This document shows positions 2,315 through 60,788 of a DNA stretch of 64,000 nucleotides, one piece after another (position 1 is the first letter of the stretch; each line of letters begins with the position of its first letter). Under the pieces are notes generated by a model. The model did not search any database. It was given only the letters and a program-made list of their open reading frames with translations, and was not told where the DNA came from. This DNA is from an uncultured Clostridia bacterium (GTDB lineage Bacteria > Bacillota > Clostridia > Oscillospirales > Acutalibacteraceae). The DNA is taken from NCBI GenBank assembly GCA_947628665.1, contig CANRAU010000010.1, positions 1 through 64,000 of the forward strand, in the 5' to 3' direction. The position numbers were made by a program, and so were the translations under genes.

Positions 2315-4159
2315 ATGTGCGGATTTGTCGGATATGTAAACACGGCGGACGAAACGCAGGATAACGAGCAGATCATTCGGGCGATGGCGGATAGGATCGT
2401 ACACCGCGGCCCCGATCAGGACGACTACTATGTGGACGGCGACGTGTCGCTCGGCTTTCGGCGGTTGAGCATTATCGATCTGGACGGCGGCAGCCAGCCG
2501 ATCCGCAACGAGGACGGCACAAAGGTGCTGGTTTTCAACGGCGAAATTTACAATTTCCAACCCCTGCGCGAGGAACTGCTGGCGCTCGGCCACACGTTCA
2601 AGACCCGCACGGATTCCGAGGTGCTTTTGCATGGCTACGAGCAGTGGGGCAAAGACCTGCTTGGCCGTCTGCGCGGCATGTTCGCGTTCGTGATTTGGGA
2701 TAAGCGTGAAAAAAAGCTGTTCGGCGCGCGCGATATTTTCGGCATCAAGCCCTTTTTCTATTATCTGCACGAGGGCAATTTCCTGTTCGGCTCGGAGATC
2801 AAATCGTTTTTGTCGAATCCCTTATTTAAAAAGGAACTGAACATCGAGCGTCTGCCCGATTATCTTTGCTTTGAATACATCCCCACCACCGAAACGATGT
2901 TCCGCCATGTGTATAAAATGGAGCCGGGCGCGTATTTCACCTGGCAGAACGGGGAATTTTCGACCGAACGCTATTTTACGCCGACATATGCCATCGACGA
3001 CCAACCGACGCTTGCCGACTGGGAAACCCGGATCGATGCAACCTTTCGGGATTCCACCGAAGCGCACGGCATTTCCGACGTCGAGGTCGGCTGCTTTTTG
3101 TCGAGCGGCGTGGATTCAAGCTACGTCGTACACGAAATGGCGAAGCGCAACGACGTAAAGACCTTTTCGGTCGGCTATGCCGAAGAAAAGTATTCTGAGC
3201 TTTCGGCGGCGGTGGAATTCGCCGAAACCGAGGGCGTGCGCAACTACACCAAAAAAATTACGGCGCAGGAGTATTTCGACGCCGTGCCGACCGTGCAGTA
3301 TTATATGGATGAGCCGCTCCCCAACCCCTCCGCCATCGCATTGTATTTCCTGGCGGGGCTGGCGAGCGAGCAGGTGAAGGTGGTGCTTTCGGGCGAGGGC
3401 GCGGACGAATTGTTCGGCGGCTACCACTATTACCGCGAACCGCTCGATTTCGAGAACTATATGAAGCTGCCGCTCTCCTTGCGCAAGGCTTTGTCCGCCT
3501 TGGCCGAAAAGCTTCCGAATTTCCACGGCAAACGCTTTTTGATGCGCGGCAGTCATCCCATTGAGGAACGCTTTATCCGCAACAATTACGTATTTCGCCA
3601 CGGTGAGGTGCGGGATATTCTGGCAAAGGACATCCCCTCCTGCGACCCCGCCGTTTACACCAAGCCCGTTTTTGACGAAGCGCAGGGTTTGGACGATATT
3701 ACCAAAATGCAGTACGCCGATATCCGTACATGGCTCGTGCAGGATATTTTGGTCAAGGCCGACCGCATGAGCATGGCGCATTCTCTGGAACTGCGCGTGC
3801 CGTTTTTGGATCGGGAAATGCTGGCCGTCGCGCTGCAGATCCCGTCCAAATACCGTGTGAACAAAGAGACGACCAAGCTCGCGCTGCGCGGGGCTGCCGC
3901 CAAACAGCTCCCCGAAAAAACGGCCAAAATGCGCAAAACGGGCTTTTTGACGCCGCTCAATGACTGGCTGCGCCGCGACGAATACTACGAACGCGTGAAA
4001 AACACGTTTGCAAGCGACACTGCCGCCGAATTCTTCAACCAAAAGGCGATTTTAAAGCTGCTGGAGGATCATAAGGCGGGAACGGCGCACAATATGAAAA
4101 AAATCTGGTCGGTGTATTGCTTCCTGCTTTGGTATGAGAAGTATTTTATAGAAAACTAA
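2315..4159 (+). CDS. Asparagine synthase (glutamine-hydrolysing), AsnB/AsnH type
   Basis: The 614-residue protein begins MCGFVGYV, so Cys2 is the nucleophile of an N-terminal class II glutamine amidotransferase domain. RRLSIIDL and NGEIYNF belong to that domain. The C-terminal synthetase domain has the ATP-pyrophosphatase loop SSGVDSS at about 263-269. The general reaction is Asp + Gln + ATP to Asn + Glu. Being third in an operon with a D-Asp ligase and racemase, it may instead amidate the side-chain carboxyl of D-Asp in peptidoglycan precursors, as AsnH does in lactobacilli and lactococci. Sequence alone does not separate the two roles. Confidence 0.9.
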   Translation: MCGFVGYVNTADETQDNEQIIRAMADRIVHRGPDQDDYYVDGDVSLGFRRLSIIDLDGGSQPIRNEDGTKVLVFNGEIYNFQPLREELLALGHTFKTRTDSEVLLHGYEQWGKDLLGRLRGMFAFVIWDKREKKLFGARDIFGIKPFFYYLHEGNFLFGSEIKSFLSNPLFKKELNIERLPDYLCFEYIPTTETMFRHVYKMEPGAYFTWQNGEFSTERYFTPTYAIDDQPTLADWETRIDATFRDSTEAHGISDVEVGCFLSSGVDSSYVVHEMAKRNDVKTFSVGYAEEKYSELSAAVEFAETEGVRNYTKKITAQEYFDAVPTVQYYMDEPLPNPSAIALYFLAGLASEQVKVVLSGEGADELFGGYHYYREPLDFENYMKLPLSLRKALSALAEKLPNFHGKRFLMRGSHPIEERFIRNNYVFRHGEVRDILAKDIPSCDPAVYTKPVFDEAQGLDDITKMQYADIRTWLVQDILVKADRMSMAHSLELRVPFLDREMLAVALQIPSKYRVNKETTKLALRGAAAKQLPEKTAKMRKTGFLTPLNDWLRRDEYYERVKNTFASDTAAEFFNQKAILKLLEDHKAGTAHNMKKIWSVYCFLLWYEKYFIEN

Positions 4160-4173
4160 GGGGGGCGCGCCTT

Positions 4174-4905
4174 ATGGAATGCGTGAAGCGATTGGTTTTG
4201 CCGCACGCGGCAAATATCCGTGATATGGGCGGATTCGTGACCAAAAACGGCAAGGCGGTTCGCTGGAATCGGCTGTTTCGCGCAGATGCGCTCAGCGCCC
4301 TGACCGAGTCGGAATGGCAAATTCTTTGGGATAAGGGCGTTCGCACGGTCATTGACCTTCGAAGCGGCGCGGAAGTCAGGATGTTCCCCGACCGCGTGCC
4401 GCAGGGCATGACGTTTGCGCATTGCCCGCTGTTTGAGGACGACGTCGATATGCAGAATCTGGACACGGGCGCAGCTGCGGCCTTTCGCAAAAGCATGGTG
4501 GAAAGCTACATCGGTGTGGCGCGCGATACGCCTTGGCTCTTGGGCGCGGCGCTGCATACGGTATCCGAAGGCTTAAAAAGCGGCGCGGTGATTTTCCACT
4601 GCACGGCGGGCAAGGACAGAACGGGCATACTCGCCGCGACGATTTTGTATCTTTTGGACGCATATGCCTGCGACATTATGGCGGACTACGAGGTCTCCAA
4701 TACATACAACCGCGACGGCCTGCACAAATCCCTCGAATCGCAGGCCAATTACGACGAGCTGCTGCCGCTTTTAAACTCGAATCCCGACAACATCCGCGCA
4801 CTGCTACTCTACTATGAACAACAGGCGGATCTGCGCACGGATCTGTCGCTGAACGGCTTTTCCGAAGCGGACTTAGCCGATTTGCGGGCGGCTGTGCTGG
4901 AATAA
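4174..4905 (+). CDS. Tyrosine-protein phosphatase (Y_phosphatase3 family)
   Basis: The 243-residue protein carries the CX5R phosphatase loop HCTAGKDRTG, with nucleophile Cys143 and Arg149. It also has the family N-terminal pattern in which NIRDMGGF is followed by a strand and the VIDLRS element. This family hydrolyses phosphotyrosine or phosphoinositide-like phosphomonoesters, and no signal peptide is visible. It starts 14 bp after the asparagine synthase stop behind GGGGGGC, so it is probably cotranscribed with the D-Asp operon. The physiological substrate is unknown. Confidence 0.85.
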   Translation: MECVKRLVLPHAANIRDMGGFVTKNGKAVRWNRLFRADALSALTESEWQILWDKGVRTVIDLRSGAEVRMFPDRVPQGMTFAHCPLFEDDVDMQNLDTGAAAAFRKSMVESYIGVARDTPWLLGAALHTVSEGLKSGAVIFHCTAGKDRTGILAATILYLLDAYACDIMADYEVSNTYNRDGLHKSLESQANYDELLPLLNSNPDNIRALLLYYEQQADLRTDLSLNGFSEADLADLRAAVLE

Positions 4906-7234: not shown

Positions 7235-10200
7235 ATGTCGGCATTTCGAGAGCCGTTAAAAGGCTCGCCCGAATACAAAACGCTGTGCGCGGCCGTGCAA
7301 AATCGGCGACTGCCTGTCGGCGTTTTGGGACTTTCGGGGATTCATAAAGCACATTTGATCGATACGCTCTGCGGCAATTTAGGCCGTCGGGCGCTTGTCC
7401 TTATGCCCGATGAAGCATCGGCGACCAAGCTCACGCAGGACTTGCAAACCTTCGGTATGTCGGCGCTTCTGTACCCCGAGCGGGAATTCGTGTTCCATAC
7501 CGCGACCGAAAGCCGTTCGCATGAATACGAGCAGCGCCGCTTGAAAGCGCTCACGGGGCTGCTGGCCAACACGGCGCAGGCGGTGGTCTGCTCTGTGGGT
7601 GCGGCCATACAGCGTACCATCCCGCCCGAGGAGCTGCGGCGGCGCGCCGTCACCGTGCGCGTGGGGACGCAAACGCGCATCCAAACGATTACTGAGGTTT
7701 TGCTCGCCGGCGGCTATGCACGTTGCGATATGGTCGAGGGCGTGGGGCAGTTTTCCCTGCGCGGCGGCATTTTAGACCTGTTTTCGCCCGATGAAGACCG
7801 CCCCGTGCGCATCGAATTTTTTGGCGATACGGTCGAGACGATGTCGTATTTCGATTTGCAGAGCCAGCGGCGCAACGGAAAATTAGAGGAATTCACGCTG
7901 ATGCCCTCTACAGAAATTTTGTTTGCCGACGACGACACGCTCTGCGCGCGCATCGAAGCGCTGGCGGCATCTCTCAAAGGCAAACACGCCGCCAAACAGC
8001 GCGAAGCGCTTTACAGGGATGTGGATCGTATCAAAAGCGGCGTGCGGCTCAATTCCGTCGACAAATATCTGCCGTTGGCGTACGAGCAGGCCGCCACGGT
8101 GTTCGAGTATACGGATGCAGACACCCTTTTGATCGTCTGCGACAGCGTCAATGTCAAGGAGCGGGCGGCCAATGCCGCGAAGCTCCTGCAGGAGGAGATC
8201 AAATCCCTGCTCGAAGAAGGGACGCTGTGCAAGGGATTAGATAATTTCTGCCTATCGCAGGCGGAGCTATTCACGCAATACGAAAAAGGGCAGACGCTGT
8301 ATTTGGACAATTTCGCGCGCGGCAGCTTCGACACGCCCGTTCGGGAACTGGTGACCTTTACCGCCACACAGCAGCCCGGGTGGAATGGGCAGCTGCAAGT
8401 GCTTTGCGACGACGTCGCGCCGATTCTGCAAAAGGACGCGGCGGTCGTGGTCATGGGCGGCACGCCGAAGGCGGCGAAAACGCTTGCGGAGGATTTGGAG
8501 AACGAGGGGATTTCCGCGCTGTATTTTCCCGTGACCCCCGCCGAATTCCCAAAAGGGCGCGTCTCGGTCTTGGCAGGCACGCTGTCCTACGGCTTTTCGT
8601 ATCCGCATGAAAAATTTTACGTTTTTACGTATGGGTATGCCGCCGTGCGCGCAAAGCGCAAAGCGCAAAGCGGCTTTAAAAAGGGGCAGGGCTTTCATTC
8701 GCTTGACGAGTTGCACAAGGGCGATTACGTCGTGCACGCTTCCTATGGCATCGGCGTGTTTGACGGCATTCAAAAATTAGAGGTCGGCAAGATCACCAAG
8801 GATTATATGAAGATCCGCTATGCCAAAAGCGACGTGCTGTATGTCCCCGTGACGCAGTTGGATCTGGTCTCCAAATACATCGGCCCGCATGAGGACAGCG
8901 GCAAAACGGTTAAGCTCAACCGCATCGGCGGCAAGGATTGGGAAAAAACGCGTTCGCGCGTGCGCGCGGCGGTCAAGGATATGGCCGATCAGCTTATCGC
9001 CCTGTACGCCAAGCGGCAGTCGCTTGCGGGACACGCGTTTTCGCCCGACATCGATATGCAAAATGATTTTGAGCGGCGTTTCCCCTATGACGAAACGGCG
9101 GATCAGCTGCGTGCCATCAACGAGATCAAGGGCGATATGGAAAAGCCCTATCCGATGGATCGGCTGCTGTGCGGCGATGTGGGCTTCGGCAAGACCGAGG
9201 TCGCCTTGCGCGCGGCGTTCAAATGCGTGGCGGACGGCAAGCAGTGCGCCATTTTGGTGCCGACCACAATTTTGGCGCTCCAGCACTACCGCACGATCCT
9301 CAACCGCTTTGAGGGCTTTCCCGTCAATGTCGAAATGCTCTCGCGTTTTCGCACCGCGAAGCAGCAGGAGAAAATCTTAAAAGACCTGCGGCGCGGCAGT
9401 CTCGATTTGATCGTCGGCACGCATCGGCTTGTGTCCAAGGATGTGCAGTTTAAAGATTTGGGGCTGCTGATCGTCGATGAAGAGCAGCGCTTCGGCGTGG
9501 CACAAAAGGAAAAACTGAAAGAGCTGTTCCCGACGGTGGACGTCCTCACGCTGTCGGCGACGCCGATCCCGCGCACACTCAATATGGCGATGACGGGCAT
9601 CCGCGATATGTCCACCATCGAAGAAGCCCCGCAGGATCGGTATCCCGTGCAGACCTATGTGCTGGAATACGATATGGGCGTTCTTTTGGAAGCCATGGAA
9701 AAGGAACTGCGGCGCGGCGGGCAGGTGTATTTCCTGCACAACCGTGTGGAGACGATCGACAAACGCGCCGCCGAGATCGCCGCGCTGCTCCCCGAAGCGC
9801 GCGTCGCGGTCGCGCACGGCAAAATGGCCGAGGAGGAGCTGAGCGATATTTGGCGGCGGCTGCTCGAAGGCGAGATCGACATTCTCGTCTGCACCACGAT
9901 CATCGAAACGGGTGTGGACGTTCCCAACTGCAACACGCTCATCATTGAAAATGCGGATCACATGGGGCTTGCGCAGCTGCACCAGATTCGCGGCCGCGTG
10001 GGCAGAAGCGCGCGGCGGGCAAGCGCGTATTTCACGTTTACGCGCGGCAAGGAGCTTTCCGAGATCGCAAGCCGCCGGCTGTCCGCGATTCGGGAATATA
10101 CCGAATTCGGCTCGGGCTTTAAGATCGCCATGCGTGATTTGGAGATACGCGGCGCGGGCAACGTCCTCGGCGCGCAGCAGCACGGCCATATGGAAGCGGT

Positions 10201-45947: not shown

Positions 45948-45968
45948 GCAACCATAAAATTCCATCTA

Positions 45969-46061
45969 CAGGGGTGCTGGCGCGAAAGCCGGCTGAGAGT
46001 AAGAATGTATGCTTCTTTGACCCTTTCAACCTGATGCGGGTAATGCCGCCGTAGGAAGTTT
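45969..46061 (+). promoter_or_regulatory. TPP (THI-box) riboswitch
   Basis: The conserved elements occur in order: GGGGTGC at the start, CTGAGA (45993-45998) that binds the pyrimidine, GACCCTT, AACCTGAT (46028-46035), and GGGTAATGCC (46038-46047) with the closing GTAGGAAG. An intrinsic terminator follows at 46081, so thiamine pyrophosphate should stop transcription of the transporter genes. Confidence 0.97.
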
Positions 46062-46080
46062 TGGAGAGCAAATTGCAAAC

Positions 46081-47189: not shown

Positions 47190-48202
47190 AAAAGCAACTT
47201 AAAAAGTTAACGGCCGTACTGCTGTGCGCCGTTTTGCTCTTTGGCCTTGCCGCCTGCGGCGGAAAAGAGGATGCGGACGCATCCGAAAAAGCGGAGATCG
47301 TCCTGTCTCTCGACTGGACGCCGAACACCAACCACACGGGGATTTATGTCGCACTGGCGAAAGGCTATTTTGCCGACGCGGGATTGAACGTGACCGTCGT
47401 ACAGCCGTCGCAAAACGGCGCGGCGGCCATGTGCGCGGCGGGACAGGCACAGTTTGCCATTGAAGCGCAGGATACGCTTGCGGCGGCTCTGATCGGTGAT
47501 GCGCCGCTTGGCGTGACGGCGGTCGCGGCGCTTTTGCAGCACAACACTTCGGGGATCATTTCCCGCAAGGGCGAGGGCATGGATACCCCGAAGGGACTTA
47601 CGGGGCATACCTATGCCACCTGGGATTCGCCCATTGAGCAGGCGATGCTCAAATATGTCGTCGAAAAGGACGGCGGGGATTTTTCCAAGATCAAGCTGAT
47701 TCCGAACAATATCACCGACGAAGCAGGCGCGCTGCGTGAACACCTGACCGACGCGGTTTGGATCTTCTACGGCTGGGGCGGCATTGCCGCAAAGGTGTCG
47801 GGTTTGGAATTCGATTATTTCAGCTTTGCCGACATCGATAAGGTGTTTGACTATTACACGCCGATCCTCATCGGCAACAACGCCTATCTCGAGAGCCACC
47901 CCGACGAGACCCGCGCGCTGCTGGATGCGCTCGAAAAGGGCTACACCTACGCCATCGAACACCCCGAGGAGGCCGCGCAGATCCTCATTGACGGCGACAC
48001 CACAGGTTCTTTGCGCGATTCCAAAGAGCTGGTTACCGAAAGCCAGAAGTGGATCTCCGCGCAGTATAAGGCGGACGCACAGCAGTGGGGCTATATCGAC
48101 CCCGCGCGCTGGGACGGGTTCTATCAATGGCTTTGGGACAACCACCTGATCGAGGAAGAACTGCCCAAGGGAACGGGGTATACCAATGCCTATCTCTCCT
48201 GA
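47186..48202 (+). CDS. Thiamine-precursor substrate-binding lipoprotein (NMT1/THI5-like)
   Basis: The 338-residue protein starts with a lipoprotein signal ending LAAC (Cys24). The mature domain begins with the NMT1/THI5 motif LDWTPNTNHTGIYVALAKGY, seen in proteins that bind formylaminopyrimidine or HMP. It delivers the ligand to the permease outside the cell. It overlaps the permease stop and the ATPase start. Confidence 0.92.
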   Translation: MKKQLKKLTAVLLCAVLLFGLAACGGKEDADASEKAEIVLSLDWTPNTNHTGIYVALAKGYFADAGLNVTVVQPSQNGAAAMCAAGQAQFAIEAQDTLAAALIGDAPLGVTAVAALLQHNTSGIISRKGEGMDTPKGLTGHTYATWDSPIEQAMLKYVVEKDGGDFSKIKLIPNNITDEAGALREHLTDAVWIFYGWGGIAAKVSGLEFDYFSFADIDKVFDYYTPILIGNNAYLESHPDETRALLDALEKGYTYAIEHPEEAAQILIDGDTTGSLRDSKELVTESQKWISAQYKADAQQWGYIDPARWDGFYQWLWDNHLIEEELPKGTGYTNAYLS

Positions 48203-48932
48203 CACTGCCCTGCTGCGCGCCGAGGGGATCGCCAAGCGGTTCGGGGACAATACCGTGCTTTCGGATGTGGATCTTGCGATCGGCAAGGGCGAGCTTGTGT
48301 GCCTGATCGGTGTGAGCGGTTCGGGGAAAACCACGCTGTTCAATATCCTTTCGGGGCTGATGCAGCCCGACGCAGGGCGTGTGTACCTGCGTGACGAAGA
48401 GATCACGGGACGCCCGGGCAAGATCAGCTATATGCTGCAAAAGGATCTTTTGCTGCCCTACCGCACGGTGGTTGATAACGTCGCTTTGCCGTTGCTGATC
48501 CGCGGGACGCCGAAAAAAGAGGCGCGCGAAAAAGCCGCGTCGTATTTCGGAAAATTCGGGTTGAGCGGCACGGAAAACAAGTACCCCGACAAGCTGTCGG
48601 GCGGTATGCGTCAGCGAGCGGCGCTGCTGCGCACCTATCTTGCGTCTGACGGTGTCGCGCTGCTCGACGAACCGTTCAGCGCGCTGGACGCGATCACCAA
48701 AAGCGCCGTACACGAATGGTATTTGGACATTATGCGGGAGATCGAATTGACCACGCTGTTTATTACGCACGATATGGATGAAGCGGTCAAGCTATCCGAC
48801 CGCATTTATGTGCTGTCGGGGCATCCGGGGCGGATCGCGCGTGAAATCCCTGTGACCGAACCGCGTCCGCGCGCGCACGATTTTTCGCTGACGCCCGAAT
48901 TTCTCGCCTACAAACGGCAGCTTGTGCTGTGA
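48186..48932 (+). CDS. ABC transporter ATP-binding protein (ThiZ-like)
   Basis: The 248-residue ATPase has Walker A GVSGSGKTT, the signature LSGGMRQRAALLRTY, and Walker B GVALLDEPFSALD, then a THDMDEAV switch. It powers the thiamine-precursor importer and is the last gene of the riboswitch operon. It is followed by a hairpin and an intergenic element rather than by thiamine-synthesis genes. Confidence 0.93.
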   Translation: MPISPDTALLRAEGIAKRFGDNTVLSDVDLAIGKGELVCLIGVSGSGKTTLFNILSGLMQPDAGRVYLRDEEITGRPGKISYMLQKDLLLPYRTVVDNVALPLLIRGTPKKEAREKAASYFGKFGLSGTENKYPDKLSGGMRQRAALLRTYLASDGVALLDEPFSALDAITKSAVHEWYLDIMREIELTTLFITHDMDEAVKLSDRIYVLSGHPGRIAREIPVTEPRPRAHDFSLTPEFLAYKRQLVL

Positions 48933-48960: not shown

Positions 48961-49004
48961 CCAAAACGGTCTGCGACCCGTATATTGCGGATCGCAAGCC
49001 GTTT
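48961..49004 (+). repeat. Terminator-hairpin duplication, left copy (44 bp)
   Basis: AAACGG..TGCGACCCG pairs with CGGATCGCA..CCGTTT to form a long hairpin after the ThiZ-like gene. No U-tract follows. The same 44 bp occurs again at 49328-49371 with one mismatch. The two copies bracket the element at 49005-49327. Confidence 0.9.
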
Positions 49005-49327
49005 CATTCTGTCGATCAACTGTTTTTTAACAGCAAAACAATCAAAAGTTTTCGCCCGCCTTTTTCAAAAGGCGGCAGGGGTCACGGGGACAGCGTCACC
49101 GTGTCGCAGCCCGCAGGCTGCGACATCTCTTTGCCTAAAGAAGCGCAGGAGGGGCGAAAAACAGTCCGGTGGACTGTTTTTCGGTGGGGATTCTCGCCTG
49201 CCGGCTCGGTCGGTGCTTCTGCCTTCGGCAGAGGTGTCCACCGGACACCCGCACCCCTCGCCGGGGGTTCCCCATAATCTTACTTCTTTTGGACATTTTG
49301 CCAAGTAGCATATACTTTTTCTACACA
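49005..49327 (+). repeat. Hairpin-dense intergenic element, copy 1 (323 bp)
   Basis: This non-coding element opens TCTGTCGATCAACTGTTTT just after the left hairpin and ends in ATACTTTTTCTACAC. It contains the CCGCC-TTTTTC-AAAAGGCGG module (49057-49075) and hairpins GTCGCAGCC/GGCTGCGAC (49103-49124), AAAAACAGTCC/GGACTGTTTTT (49157-49181), CTGCC/GGCAG (49219-49231) and GGTGTCC/GGACACC (49233-49249). Positions 49143-49284 match the inverted copy at 58708-58849 in 140 of 142 bases. Open frames inside lack ribosome sites. Confidence 0.88.
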
Positions 49328-49376
49328 CCAAAACGGCCTGCGACCCGTATATTGCGGATCGCAAGCCGTTTTTATG
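49328..49376 (+). terminator. Terminator-hairpin duplication, right copy with U-tract
   Basis: This is the second copy of the 44-bp hairpin (49328-49371), here followed by TTTTTATG, so it can terminate plus-strand transcripts. On the minus strand it lies just after the lipid kinase stop and may serve that gene too. Confidence 0.88.
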
Positions 49377-49395: not shown

Positions 49396-50364
49396 TTACG
49401 CTTCGTGCGGTTCTTCGACAAAGTCGTGTTCCTCATTTTCCTCCAAGGAGATCCATTCGGGACGCTGCACCATGATCTTGACGGCATGCTTGAGGGTGGC
49501 CGCCTCCACCGAAGTGTGCTCGCCGCCGAATTCCCCGTCGAGCGTAAAGGGCGTTGGGTCGTCAAATTCAAATCGGATGTGCTTGCAGTGGCGAATGGTG
49601 ACGATCGGATTGTCGCTAACGGTCTTATTGACCATGTCGTTGGCAAGGGAAAGCAATTCCATGGGGTTCTTAAACATATTCACAAGGATCAGCTCATGCA
49701 GGCCGTCGTCAAATTCCACCCCCATGTTATGCAGCACCGGCATGCCGGCAATGCCATAGGAATTGGAGGCTGCCCCGTAGAAGTAATCGCCCTCAAAAAA
49801 TTCGCCGTCCGCTTCCACGCGCGCATGATACGGTTTCATGCGAAAGAAATCCGCCACCGCCTGCATATAATACGCGTTTTTCCCCAACGCGTTTTTGAGC
49901 TTTTGGTTGCACGAATACGAGATCGCGGTAAAGTTGCCGAACGCCGCGACGTAAATAAAGAATTCCTCGCCGAATTTGCCGATGTCCACGGGCTTCGGCT
50001 CGCCGTTGATAATGGCTTCCACCGCGTCGTGTACGTCGGTGGGAATGCCCATGGACTTTGCAAAATCGTTGGTCGAACCCATGGGCAGATACCCTATGGG
50101 AATATCCAGCCCCAACTGCATAATGCCGCAGACGGTTTCTTTGAGCGTGCCGTCGCCGCCGCAGCAGACCACAATGTCAAACTGGTGCGCACGGTTCATC
50201 ACAATGTCGTACGCGTTTTTGTTGATTTGCGTGCAGCAAGCGGTCACGTTATAGCCCGCCTGGTCAAAGCGATTGATCATCCGCATCATGTACTGCTTTG
50301 CCAGCTTTTTGCCCGATACGGGATTTACGATCAAAAGCATTTTTTGATTGCGAACATTCGCCAT
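49396..50364 (-). CDS. Diacylglycerol kinase-family lipid kinase
   Basis: The 322-residue protein has LLIVNPVSGKKLAKQYM, CCGGDGTLKETVCGI and LPMGSTNDFAKSMG, the lipid-kinase family motifs. It is a divergent paralogue of the protein at 35768. It follows glyQS by 26 bp on the minus strand and is probably cotranscribed. The lipid substrate is not determined. Confidence 0.88.
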   Translation of the reverse strand: MANVRNQKMLLIVNPVSGKKLAKQYMMRMINRFDQAGYNVTACCTQINKNAYDIVMNRAHQFDIVVCCGGDGTLKETVCGIMQLGLDIPIGYLPMGSTNDFAKSMGIPTDVHDAVEAIINGEPKPVDIGKFGEEFFIYVAAFGNFTAISYSCNQKLKNALGKNAYYMQAVADFFRMKPYHARVEADGEFFEGDYFYGAASNSYGIAGMPVLHNMGVEFDDGLHELILVNMFKNPMELLSLANDMVNKTVSDNPIVTIRHCKHIRFEFDDPTPFTLDGEFGGEHTSVEAATLKHAVKIMVQRPEWISLEENEEHDFVEEPHEA

Positions 50365-56756: not shown

Positions 56757-58457
56757 TTATCGGAGATACGGCATGGGGTTGACGCGCTTGCCGCTGACGC
56801 GCACCTCAAAGTGCAGGTGCGGCCCCGTTACATTGCCCGTCGAACCGATATTCCCGATTGCCTGCCCCGCCGAGACGTGCTGCCCTGCGGAAACCTTTAA
56901 AGAGCCTTTCAGCATATGCGCATACAGGGTAGAGAGGCCATCGCCGTGGTTGATCACGACATGATAGCCGTAGCTGGAATGGTATCCGGCGGTAACGACC
57001 GTACCGCTTGCCGCCGCGACCACCAGCGCACCCGTGCTGTGTCCGCCGGGCTTGACAATATCCACACCGCCGTGATAGCCCGACCGCCGATAGCCGAAGC
57101 CGGAAGAAGTGGAGTAGGCACCGACCGCCGGCCAAATGAAGCGTTTGCCGTAGCTGGTCGTGGAGTACGACCCCGTGTAACCCGAAACGGCCTTTTTCGT
57201 GCCGACCTGCACGACCTCGTTTACGGGCGCTTTGGTGGTTTGACGGGAGACTTCCTTGACCGAGGTGCGCACGCCGTCCACATAGGTGACCAGCTCCGTA
57301 ACGATCTGTTCGCCGTTTTGCCCCTTGGTCTTGGTGCGTTTGGTACCCGAATACAGACTTGCCGTTTTTTCCTCCACGGTTTCATACGGGATGGATACGG
57401 TACGTGTTTCCGTTTTGGTCACCTGCACCTGAATGTAGCTGACCTCTCTGGAAAGCAAAAGTTGCTGCCCGATATGGATATTTTCGTTTAAACCCGGATT
57501 GAGCGCAAACAGCTGCGAGGTGGCCATTTTGTACTTCTGCGCAATGCCCGAAACGGTATCGCCCGCCTGCACCGTATAATACTGCGCCGCGCTCTTTTTG
57601 GAATTCAACTGCTCGGTAAGCCGACCGGCGTCCCAAACCGTCTCGTCGCTGTCGGGATAAAGCCCCTGTACATAGGCAATATCCTCCACAAACCCCACAA
57701 CGGCGTTTTTGTCGTCGGTTTTGTAATTGCGCAGGATGTTGTCGAATACGCTGGTCGCGTCCGTTTCATTCTTGACCGCGCAGAGAAATACATCGTCCAC
57801 ATAAATGCCGCAGGCGTTGGTGATTTTGCGGTTGCTGTGCTCGATGATCTCATCGCAAAGCACGGCCGCATCCTGAATTTCGCTGCGCTTGACGGGCTTG
57901 ATTGCATAGCTTGTGGATTCCGTCACAGGGGCGGAATCCACCTTGGCGGCGGTGGACAGCCGCACGGATGCCAGCTCCTGCGCTTCGTGGTATACCGCCT
58001 CGGATTCCACATAGCCGATCACTGAACCGTTGTAATTGACCTCTAAGGCCAGGGTGCGACCCGAATAGCTGCTGACGGTCAGGCATAAAAGCACAAAAGC
58101 CAAGACCGGCAGCCCCGTATTGACCGCGAAGCGGATCACGACGCCATGCCTGCTGACCGCCTTTTGCGCATAGGTGCGCAAAAGGGCAAGCGCGCTTTTG
58201 CGGTCGGTTTTCAAAAGCTTCCGAAGATGCCCGCGAACGCGGCGAAAGTCGGCAAGCAGTTCCTTTGCCTCGCGCAGAAGCGCCGAAAATGCCTTGCGGA
58301 TCGCTCCGGCGGCCATAAAGAACGCCGCCGCAAGCACCGTCCAAATCGCTTTCAACGGGATTTGGAGCTTGTGCAGAAGCCAGCGGACGGCATTGCGCAT
58401 CTTATAGCCGCTTTTCAAGCCCAAATAATATAAATTTCGATAGATTTTATCCAACAT
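56757..58457 (-). CDS. M23 peptidase with LysM and G5 domains
   Basis: The 566-residue protein has an unusually long N-terminal part of about 110 basic, helical residues before a membrane helix (about 112-130). An extracellular region follows, with LysM (about 293-336), G5 (about 342-420) and a C-terminal M23 endopeptidase whose zinc ligands are HGGVD (His462, Asp466) and HLHFE (His549). It should cut peptidoglycan cross-bridges or stem peptides while bound to glycan. The start at 58457 follows GAGGTC. A hydrophobic stretch at 38-52 may be a second membrane-associated segment. Confidence 0.9.
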   Translation of the reverse strand: MLDKIYRNLYYLGLKSGYKMRNAVRWLLHKLQIPLKAIWTVLAAAFFMAAGAIRKAFSALLREAKELLADFRRVRGHLRKLLKTDRKSALALLRTYAQKAVSRHGVVIRFAVNTGLPVLAFVLLCLTVSSYSGRTLALEVNYNGSVIGYVESEAVYHEAQELASVRLSTAAKVDSAPVTESTSYAIKPVKRSEIQDAAVLCDEIIEHSNRKITNACGIYVDDVFLCAVKNETDATSVFDNILRNYKTDDKNAVVGFVEDIAYVQGLYPDSDETVWDAGRLTEQLNSKKSAAQYYTVQAGDTVSGIAQKYKMATSQLFALNPGLNENIHIGQQLLLSREVSYIQVQVTKTETRTVSIPYETVEEKTASLYSGTKRTKTKGQNGEQIVTELVTYVDGVRTSVKEVSRQTTKAPVNEVVQVGTKKAVSGYTGSYSTTSYGKRFIWPAVGAYSTSSGFGYRRSGYHGGVDIVKPGGHSTGALVVAAASGTVVTAGYHSSYGYHVVINHGDGLSTLYAHMLKGSLKVSAGQHVSAGQAIGNIGSTGNVTGPHLHFEVRVSGKRVNPMPYLR

Positions 58458-58540
58458 ATATTGACCTCGTGACCCGTCCTGCATCGGGAACGCCTTTTTG
58501 CAGGTCGGAAATCTGCGATTTTGCTATGTTTTCTGCGGGT

Positions 58541-58619: not shown

Positions 58620-58658
58620 GCAAAAAACACAAAAACGGGGGACGCCGAAAAGCGTCCC
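58620..58658 (-). terminator. Terminator-hairpin duplication, distal copy with U-tract
   Basis: GGGACGC-TTTTC-GGCGTCCC (58636-58658), read on the minus strand, is followed by CCGTTTTTGTGTTTTTTG. It probably was the original terminator of argS. The same 23 bp occurs at 58983-59005. Confidence 0.85.
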
Positions 58659-58982
58659 TCGTAGCGTGTAGAAAAAGTATGTGTCGCTTGGCAATATGCA
58701 CAAAAGGAGTAAGATTATGGGGAACCCCCGGCGAGGGGTGCGGGTGTCCGGTGGACACCTCTGCCGAAGGCAGAAGCACCGACCGAGCCGACAGGCGAGA
58801 ATCCCCACCGAAAAACAGTCCACTGGACTGTTTTTCGCCCCTCCTGCGCTCTTTTGGAACAAAAATTTCGCAGCCTGCGGGCTGCGATGAGGGCGCCGCC
58901 CCTCAACCCCGCCGCCTTTTGAAAAAGGCGGGCGAAAACTTTTCGTTATTTTGCTATCGCAAAACAGTTTATCGACAGACTG
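58659..58982 (-). repeat. Hairpin-dense intergenic element, copy 2 (324 bp, inverted)
   Basis: This is the reverse-oriented counterpart of 49005-49327 and almost the same length. The strongest match is 58708-58849 (140/142). The CCGCC/AAAAGGCGG module lies at about 58911-58932. The proximal end at 58961-58980 reads, on the minus strand, TCTGTCGATAAACTGTTTT. The middle shows more divergence. It sits between argS and the M23 gene. No credible protein is encoded. Confidence 0.88.
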
Positions 58983-59005
58983 CGGGGGACGCCGAAAAGC
59001 GTCCC
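58983..59005 (-). repeat. Terminator-hairpin duplication, proximal copy (23 bp)
   Basis: This 23-bp hairpin sequence is identical to 58636-58658. It lies 19 bp past the argS stop. On the minus strand it is followed by CGCAGTCTG, not a U-tract, so it is probably a poor terminator by itself. Confidence 0.9.
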
Positions 59006-59024
59006 CCCCAAACAGCCGATATGC

Positions 59025-60767
59025 TTACATACTCTCCGGCGCGGAGATTTTAAAGGCGGTCAAAATATTGACCATCACGCTGCGCACCGCCAGGCAGAGA
59101 TTCAACCGCGCCTGCATCAGGCTCTCGTCCGCCACGCCGATTTTGCAGGCGTTGTAATATTTGTGGAACAGCGTCGCCAAATTGATCGCATAACGCGTGA
59201 TTTTGGCGGGGTCATAATGGGTCGCCGCCAACACGACCTCGTCCGTCAGCGATGCCAAATGCCGAATGAGTTCGCGCTCCTCGGGCGCATGCAGCTGTTC
59301 GAGTTCTTTTTCGGTACAGGCGCGCGGCGCAATACCGTCCGCCGCCAGCTTTTTCAAAATGCTGCAAATGCGCGCGTTGGCATACTGGCAGTAATACACG
59401 GGATTTTGCGCATTCTCGCTCACGGCAAGTCCCAAGTCAAAATCAATGGTCGACCCGGGTTCGCGCAGATTGAAGAAGAAGCGCGCTGCGTCTATGGGTA
59501 CTTCCTCCAGCAGATCGACCAGCGTGACCGCGTTGCCCGTCCGCTTAGACATCCGCACAGGCTCGCCGTCCTTCATCAGATTGACCAGCTGCATCAAAAC
59601 CACGTCCAAAGCCGAACCGTCCAGGCCGATGGCGTCCAGCGCGCCCTTCAGCCGCGCCACATGGCCGTGATGATCCGCGCCCCACACGTCGATGGCCTTT
59701 TGAAAGCCGCGCGTGACCAGCTTGTTCTTGTGATAGGCAATATCCGCCGCAAAATAGGTCGGGTTGCCGTTTTGGCGGATCAGCACATCGTCCTTCAGCT
59801 CCAGCTTGTCGATCTGCTCCTGCGTTTTGCCCTGCGCAAGCAGCTTCTCGGTCTGCACTTCGATATTTTTGTACCACAGCGCGCCGTCTTTTTCATACGT
59901 CTTGCCGTTTTCGGTCAGGGTGTCGATCACCTCGCGGATCGCGCCCTTATGCAGTTCGCTTTCGTGGAACCACTCGTCGTACGCAATGCGGTATTTCGAG
60001 AGATTTTCACGCATATTCTCGATATTTTTCGGCAGCGCAAACGCCACGAGCGCCGCACGGCGTTCCGATTCGCTCTTTTGCAGGAACGCGTCGCCGTAAA
60101 GGTCGGCGAATTCCTTTGCGCGCGCCGTAATATCCGCGCCGTGATAGCTGTCCTCGGGCAGCTCGGGCGCGTTTTCTCCCAAAAACAACTGCTGATAGCG
60201 AATGTCCAGCGAAAGGCCGAATTTGTCGATCTGGTTGCCCGCGTCGTTGATATAAAATTCCCGCGTAACGCTGTACCCCGCCATTTCCAGCACCGCCGCG
60301 AGGCAGTCGCCAAGCGCGCCGCCGCGCGCATTGCCCATATGCATAGGGCCTGTGGGATTCGCCGAAACGAATTCGACGTTGACGCGCTTTCCCTTCCCGA
60401 AATCACTCCTGCCGTACGCTTCGCCTTTTTCCAGCACGTCCAGCAGAATATCGGCATAGAACCGGTCACTCAGGCGGAAATTGATAAAGCCCGCCCCCGC
60501 GACGGAGCATTCCGAAAAATAGCTGTCGCCAAGGTCAATGTATTTGGCGATCGCCTGCGCAATTTTGATAGGCGCGGTATGAAAGCACCGCGCGCCGGCA
60601 AACGCCACGTTGGTGGCATAATCGCCGTTTGCCCGATCCTGCGGGATCTCCACATGAAACGCGGGCAGCGCAGCTTCGGGCAGTTCTCCCGCCGCGATGG
60701 CGCGGCCGATCGCTTCCAAAATAAGACTGTGCAGCGCGTTTTCCGTTTCTTTGACAAGTTTAGACAT
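59025..60767 (-). CDS. argS: Arginyl-tRNA synthetase
   Basis: The 580-residue class I enzyme has VSANPTGPMHMGNARGG, the HIGH-like site, and VRMSKRTGNAV, the KMSKS-equivalent segment. The N-terminal Add1 and C-terminal DALR domains (ACKIGVADESLMQARLNL) fit the family. The start at 60767 is set by GGAG eight bases upstream. It is the last gene of the ddl-DUF1934-argS operon. Confidence 0.97.
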   Translation of the reverse strand: MSKLVKETENALHSLILEAIGRAIAAGELPEAALPAFHVEIPQDRANGDYATNVAFAGARCFHTAPIKIAQAIAKYIDLGDSYFSECSVAGAGFINFRLSDRFYADILLDVLEKGEAYGRSDFGKGKRVNVEFVSANPTGPMHMGNARGGALGDCLAAVLEMAGYSVTREFYINDAGNQIDKFGLSLDIRYQQLFLGENAPELPEDSYHGADITARAKEFADLYGDAFLQKSESERRAALVAFALPKNIENMRENLSKYRIAYDEWFHESELHKGAIREVIDTLTENGKTYEKDGALWYKNIEVQTEKLLAQGKTQEQIDKLELKDDVLIRQNGNPTYFAADIAYHKNKLVTRGFQKAIDVWGADHHGHVARLKGALDAIGLDGSALDVVLMQLVNLMKDGEPVRMSKRTGNAVTLVDLLEEVPIDAARFFFNLREPGSTIDFDLGLAVSENAQNPVYYCQYANARICSILKKLAADGIAPRACTEKELEQLHAPEERELIRHLASLTDEVVLAATHYDPAKITRYAINLATLFHKYYNACKIGVADESLMQARLNLCLAVRSVMVNILTAFKISAPESM

Positions 60768-60788
60768 CCGATTTTCTCCGATCTTCAA

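Follow-up and report, generated by a model that had tools for sequence, protein, structure and literature searches.

A short mobile repeat inserts at the terminator hairpins of bacterial genes and is flanked by a complete hairpin copy at either end

DDE transposases as a rule generate a target duplication of fixed length that is set by the geometry of the protein. The closest described systems are IS1272 and TnSha1 of Staphylococcus, members of the IS1182 family and hence of the family to which we assign the putative helper of the element described here. According to the accessible parts of two reports (PMC4923244, PMC5678879), they are, like our element, directed to hairpins without a primary-sequence consensus, several of which are mapped terminators; unlike at our element, which duplicates the whole hairpin, the target hairpin is wholly or partly deleted and no duplication arises. 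The accessible text of PMC5678879 also draws the duplication of a whole stem-loop as a hypothetical alternative (pathway b), states that DDE transposition proceeds by an attack of the element's 3' ends on the target, and cites Siguier et al. (2015) for the targeting of palindromes by some IS1182 members. In the literature searched, in part available as partial text and with ISfinder and most subscription papers outside its scope, we came across no account in which the duplication of whole hairpins had been observed as a rule. Short, multicopy, structured intergenic repeats such as BOX, RUP, SPRITE and BrickBuilt resemble our element in these respects, and boxB varies in copy number, as does a 63-bp inner unit of our element; however, the accessible parts of PMC3049150 and PMC4596501 mention no target duplication of hairpin length for these repeats, which sets them apart by description rather than by sequence. 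Here, we describe a short mobile repeat that lands on the hairpins ending bacterial genes, after which a copy of the entire hairpin stands at either side of it. With a probability of roughly 80%, we take it to be a miniature element (MITE) that is moved by a DDE transposase of the IS1182 family and joined to the 5' feet of an extruded DNA hairpin, which is then copied by gap filling.

The window, i.e. the whole stretch of 64,000 nucleotides that was analysed, harbours two copies of the element in opposite orientation, which are 88% identical (Table 1). The first-pass annotation had described identical 23-bp hairpins on both sides of the copy downstream of argS (copy 2), and all of its coordinates are exact to the base: CGGGGGACGCCGAAAAGCGTCCC, which forms a terminator hairpin, can be read directly at both 58636-58658 and 58983-59005, and once the ends are set by the family the duplication amounts to 25 nt with one mismatch. 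It had further assigned a U-tract exclusively to the argS-distal hairpin, which is confirmed both by the sequence, where CCGTTTTTGTGTTTTTT directly follows this hairpin on the minus strand, and by a terminator scan, which lists the argS-distal hairpin (58658-58639) and not the argS-proximal one. As the hairpin alone is duplicated, the distal position of the U-tract does not represent a separate clue. At copy 1, the two 44-nt flanking hairpins are 98% identical to each other and, as had also been noted, unrelated in sequence to those of copy 2. Compared to shuffled sequences, copy 2 including both flanking hairpins folds better by 7-9 standard deviations. The left end of copy 2 contains AAAAGGAGTAAGATTATG (58702-58719), which resembles a ribosome binding site with a start codon and is perhaps a remnant of a lost gene. 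Elsewhere in the window, a TPP riboswitch is located at 45960-46074 (RF00059, 63 bits).

Table 1. Positions of the two element copies, their flanking hairpins and the neighbouring genes in the window.
Feature	Position	Strand	Remarks
ABC transporter ATPase-like gene	48186..48932	+	converges on copy 1; 25 of 189 matches listed, all below cut-offs
Hairpin copy abutting the right end of copy 1	48961..49004	.	44 nt; 41-nt duplication with family ends
Copy 1 of the element	49005..49330	-	inverted relative to copy 2
Hairpin copy abutting the left end of copy 1	49328..49371	.	44 nt; 41-nt duplication with family ends
Lipid kinase gene	49396..50364	-	converges on copy 1; TIGR00147, 149 bits (cut-off 119)
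Gene downstream of copy 2	56757..58484	-	peptidoglycan hydrolases as best NCBIfam matches, none of which reaches its cut-off
U-tract	58622..58635	-	adjoins the argS-distal hairpin only; sequence and terminator scan
Left copy of the duplicated hairpin	58636..58660	.	argS-distal; U-tract on the minus strand
Copy 2, MITE-like element	58662..58982	+	321 bp; boundaries set by family ends; left end TAGCGTGTAG, right end ATCGACAGACTG
Right copy of the duplicated hairpin	58983..59007	.	argS-proximal; without U-tract on the minus strand
argS, upstream gene of copy 2	59025..60788	-	TIGR00456, 384 bits (cut-off 262)

Relatives were inspected at both sites. Downstream of argS, 18 loci were looked at out of 30 fetched, the window's own genome included; they have another terminator or a close gene at this position, and an exact empty site was not among them. 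An exception is locus L477 of a sister species (G002), where an element-like sequence with a diverged left end follows argS, due to either shared ancestry or a second insertion. At the gene adjoining copy 1, eight loci inspected by eye revealed a single terminator hairpin at six and an ambiguous arrangement at two, and none of the eight was an exact empty site. With respect to the state before insertion, both comparisons are indirect.

The family has the consensus ends CAGCGTGTAGAAAAAG and CAGTCTGTCGATAAAC, which are identical to each other at 11 of 16 positions (counted by eye). The window's genome (G000) contains 26 left-end and 25 right-end matches, and a search of it with the 370-bp stretch returned 81 matches, many of which are fragments or the inner hairpin matching itself. 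Allowing up to three mismatches, 48 left ends are present in G002 and two each in G001, G035 and G061, while no left end is present in 34 of the 39 genus genomes examined; with the exact right-end pattern, one of 147 genomes of the order matched, namely G000. Median identity among copies is 94% in G000 (16 copies) and 90% in G002 (45 copies). The interior is a chain of hairpins, with compensatory changes at 10 of 61 predicted pairs among 26 aligned copies. The features that characterise a MITE are all present: the element is short (109-576 bp), multicopy, bounded by terminal inverted repeats and flanked by target duplications, and it is free of a transposase, the window element of 321 bp having three stops in the single frame tried and the longest of 70 copies measuring 576 bp. 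The 63-bp inner unit is arranged in tandem, minisatellite-like, at L023 of G000 (C33:5725-6164), with four further complete units and another that is truncated at the end of the contig. A short form of 109 bp occurs in G002 (L157, L158, L183) and seems to have arisen from the long form by a deletion between two CGCAAAACAG-like repeats. The hairpin-rich core is present with different ends at five loci of G000 (L011, L014, L025, L028, L029), and some match to the element exists in the genomes of 32 of 59 relatives; thus, the core seems to be common to several repeat families. Two smaller structures of G000 are located directly after a hairpin, i.e. a 39-bp element consisting of two facing ends of the CAGCTTGTCGAAAAAGGA type (L203:3971-4009) and a near-perfect palindrome of about 60 bp that starts with CAGCATGTAGAAAAA (L201:4005-4064). 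At L195 of G001, two MITEs (4150-4511 and 7290-7650) lie about 3 kb apart; one of them adjoins one hairpin at one end and, at its other end, a hairpin core of about 21 nt that recurs next to the second MITE, an arrangement that a simple reciprocal inversion does not explain. Searches of plasmid and phage DNA with the element returned just short core fragments, in one and two records, respectively, and in viral contigs the loci matching the left (8) or right (16) MITE end were not MITE-like beyond the pattern.

To compare flanks across the family, as the first-pass annotation had suggested, we compiled 70 copies with both ends and flanks, 16 from G000, 45 from G002, two from G001, four from G061 and three from G035. 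Copies with one end, with ends beyond the mismatch limits or at contig ends were left out, as were the right-end-only G002 copies among L204-L212. The same hairpin is present on both sides of 53 of the 70 copies when gaps are allowed, and none of 1500 shuffled flank pairings passed the identity threshold. The other 17 copies have one hairpin (9), none (5) or two (3), and by eye two of the three in the last group (L012, L179) look like diverged copies of a single hairpin. A gapless duplication score of at least 12 was reached by 48 of the 70 true pairs and by none of 4830 pairs in which the two flanks came from different copies. Hence, the behaviour is not confined to the two sites in the window, and coincidence, against which these two sites had originally been put forward, is excluded.

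The genes on both sides could be classed at 62 of the 70 sites by a codon-usage heuristic, the eight sites with an unclassified side being left out. The element lies between convergent genes at 32 sites, between tandem genes at 15 and 12 sites according to its direction, and between divergent genes at three; if convergent and divergent sites were equally likely, the difference would have P = 2e-7. Insertion is at the 3' ends of genes. IS1182 is, among other families, over-represented between convergent genes in the accessible part of PMC9208149. It had been proposed that the same end of the element faces the upstream gene, which as worded is correct for the two sites in the window; however, copy 1 is situated between convergent genes, so that its left and right ends are each turned towards the 3' end of a gene, and at tandem sites the direction is random (15 versus 12, p = 0.70; G000, 3 versus 3; G002, 12 versus 7). 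The argument from orientation therefore falls, and the absence of a preferred direction is expected from a symmetric hairpin target. Among the 48 gapless cases, at least five T in eight positions are found outside on the right at 31, at least five A in eight outside on the left at 36, and either tract at 45. These tracts and the strong preference for convergent gene ends would suit a guide that is provided by transcription, such as a paused RNA polymerase, the RNA hairpin of the terminator or an R-loop, in place of a DNA cruciform. We regard such a guide as unlikely, since orientation is unbiased and since a few copies reside in AT-rich sites where a terminator hairpin is missing, examples of their duplications being ATTATTTAAAA, AATTAATT and 23 nt made up of A and T only; in G002, such sites include L158 (11 nt) and L175 (23 nt), although the shortest of the AT-rich duplications (6-8 nt) could be due to chance. 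TnSha1, which carries IS1272, likewise hit a hairpin in a coding region at one of seven sites, as stated in the accessible part of PMC4923244. The AT-rich sites also indicate that 'hairpin-guided' is a better description than 'terminator-guided'. Thus, targeting with hairpin duplication (53/70 copies; tracts at 45/48) stands as initially proposed, whereas the orientation rule and a strict limitation to terminators do not.

The ends of the element also led to insertion sequences. The end variants CAGCTTGTCGAAAAAG (42 stretches) and CAGDYTGTCGAAAAAG (at least 120 stretches) pointed to L234 and L334. L334 is an insertion sequence of 1593 bp with the ends CAGACTGTCGAAAAAG and CAGACCGTAGAAAAAC, which encodes an IS1182 transposase (Pfam DDE_Tnp_1_6 and DUF772; NF033551, 408 bits versus a cut-off of 270) and is flanked by two different hairpins; at L415, from a Clostridia MAG, whose protein is 78% identical to that of L334, the hairpin AAATGAGCCGTTCCGGGGTTGGAACGGCTCATT is present on both sides. 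L234, from a viral collection, holds an element of 300 bp whose interior is unrelated but which has similar ends and the hairpin on both sides, and at L265 of the same collection an element of 173 bp is bordered by a hairpin on just one side. In 29 of 394 genomes of the order, an IS1182 match exceeded the cut-off, and exact hairpin duplications of 27-39 bp occur at 8 of the 30 IS1182 loci returned from the order's genomes. In total, 40 loci were examined, including 12 plasmid loci picked by hand from 363 records, and 29 were kept; eight with chance-like end pairs (L434-L440, L442), two without an end pair (L430, L519) and one without a flank (L514) were left out. Not entered were L441 and L443-L448 (below the cut-off or truncated), L427 and L452 (identical to the copies L449 and L423, respectively) as well as L413, L416 and L417. 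Among the 29 elements, which have recognisable CAG..CTG ends, 18 have one hairpin duplicated, ten are flanked by two different hairpins, finished plasmids included (L414, L334, L419, L420, L422, L426, L449, L515, L516, L525), and one, ISEfa7 (L524), exhibits neither pattern. The duplication at L429 is an exact one of 39 bp, although the script set the element end inside the hairpin. In G237, a duplicated hairpin is found at two of the three copies and two different hairpins at the third. Some of the duplicating elements reside on plasmids of Sutcliffiella, Peribacillus, Cytobacillus, Salinivibrio, Rhizobium and Brevibacillus, so that more than a single lineage displays the behaviour. Thus, the replacement of the hairpin that characterises IS1272, i.e. 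its loss without duplication, is not what is found at the 53 MITE copies and 18 insertion sequences that duplicate it.

Autonomous IS1182 elements (L415, L421, L423, L517, L518 and others) share with the window element the ends, of the CAGNCTGTCGAAAAA or CAGNCTGTAGACAAA type, and the duplicated hairpin flanks, but contain a transposase of about 445-540 aa, compared to a total length of 321 bp; beyond the ends, nothing common to the MITE and the IS1182 elements was found. Compared with 18 IS1182 ends, from which the best was chosen, each MITE end agrees with its closest counterpart at 14 of 16 positions, while none of 894 plus-strand 16-mers of the window starting with CAG reaches 14 of 16, the window's own element ends not being CAG-initial on that strand. 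With regard to a derivation from IS1182, the ends thus agree and a helper in the same genome is missing: neither NF033551, PF13751 nor DDE_Tnp_1 (PF01609) has a match in G000 or G002, both of which are drafts of about 99% completeness, and the MITE is therefore an orphan in these assemblies, whose helper has to be deduced. PF13751 and PF01609 each matched one of the 39 genus genomes, in both cases G010, and the corresponding locus (L220) showed no convincing matching end at up to three mismatches. The absence of an IS1182 or DDE_Tnp_1 match from G000 and G002 might speak for a helper unrelated to IS1182, such as a transposase of the Y1 or RAYT type or a retroelement resembling group IIC introns, which insert at terminators. 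Group IIC introns, though, insert after the hairpin and are not known to duplicate it, different from the duplication at 53 of 70 copies, and Y1 transposition is not known to leave a target duplication. In addition, the Rfam scan of the window at the gathering threshold lists the TPP riboswitch only, so that a group II ribozyme was not detected, and a reverse transcriptase is too large for 321 bp. Given also that IS1182 elements have similar ends and the same hairpin duplication, an unrelated helper appears improbable, slightly more so than a transcriptional guide; the two estimates are not mutually exclusive, the one concerning the helper and the other the guide.

What is duplicated is the hairpin itself. 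The 48 gapless duplications are 19-41 nt long (median, 26.5 nt), begin with A in 42 cases and end with T in 32, and their length follows the span of the hairpin (r = 0.97; within 2 nt in 45 of 48), which shows that the target is a hairpin and not a fixed stagger. The junction is similarly precise, as a hairpin score of at least 7 is obtained at the junction of 58 of the 70 copies, at 23 upon a shift of 5 nt and at one to nine upon shifts of 10-120 nt; scores of at least 8 are reached on the right side of 51 and on the left side of 50 copies, compared to 2.5% of random window positions (n = 3000). Most copies hence adjoin terminator-like hairpins rather than lying away from terminators, and together with the duplications and the T- or A-rich tracts this identifies the usual target as the hairpin of an intrinsic terminator, copied as a whole. 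It might be argued that an ordinary transposase with random targets would leave the same distribution if copies survived just at harmless terminators, gene 3' ends being the least harmful place (32 convergent versus 3 divergent sites). We consider purifying selection as the sole cause very unlikely, since harmlessness can neither adjust the length of a duplication to that of a hairpin nor place the junction at the foot of the stem. That both hairpins belong to the element or stem from later recombination or gene conversion, as their near-identity within each site might suggest, can be dismissed almost entirely, because their sequences vary from site to site and match within a site only (none of 1500 cross pairings).

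Our preferred reading, movement of the MITE by an IS1182-family transposase, might proceed in three steps. Each strand of a palindromic terminator would extrude into a hairpin, the most likely form being a DNA cruciform; on either strand, the element's 3' end, CTG-3' in the consensus at both ends, would be joined to the 5' foot of the hairpin of that strand; and fill-in of the two single-stranded hairpins would yield one full hairpin on each side. The junctions fit pathway b of PMC5678879, with the right end of the element next to the 5' foot of the hairpin on one strand and the left end next to that on the opposite strand. We infer that the hairpin is one of DNA rather than RNA, as well as the chemistry of strand transfer and the identity of the transposase that moves these copies. 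Among the findings that count against this proposal are the lack of a helper match in G000 and G002, the agreement of the MITE and the insertion sequences at their ends only, and the lack of an exact empty site among the loci inspected. Further points are the following: 10 of the 29 insertion sequences, L334 included, have two different hairpins, which a simple duplication does not explain and for which recombination between copies or adjacent deletion are guesses; 17 of the 70 MITE copies lack the same hairpin on both sides; and ISPse1, a known IS1182 member, is tabulated with a 4-bp duplication in the accessible part of PMC3281130. In a more general form, which we hold to be likely, if with somewhat less assurance, one branch of IS1182 and its MITEs would operate without a fixed target stagger: the transposase would read the shape of the target and join the element at the 5' foot of the hairpin on each strand, the duplication would comprise exactly one hairpin of any length, terminators would be doubled instead of destroyed, and IS1272 would differ only in the foot that is attacked.

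After an insertion of this kind, a hairpin without U-tract would come first in the transcript of each neighbouring gene, followed by the structured element and then by the full terminator. Each flanking gene would retain a hairpin with its U-tract on the far side of the element, and insertion should thus do little harm; judged from the sequence, termination of the neighbouring genes is probably preserved. Related IS1182 elements in other bacteria often likewise leave a whole hairpin on each side. As the length of the duplication is here set by the structure of the target, the insertions offer a record, left by nature, of hairpins extruded in living bacteria, and the system provides a test of structure recognition by a transposase, which may also be of interest to designers of a terminator-directed insertion tool. 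For the IS1182 family, the findings suggest a common target rule with two outcomes, duplication or deletion, and for the organism they suggest how a repeat reaches dozens of copies without breaking genes or terminators. If this is true, a shape-reading IS1182 transposase makes intrinsic terminators safe landing sites.
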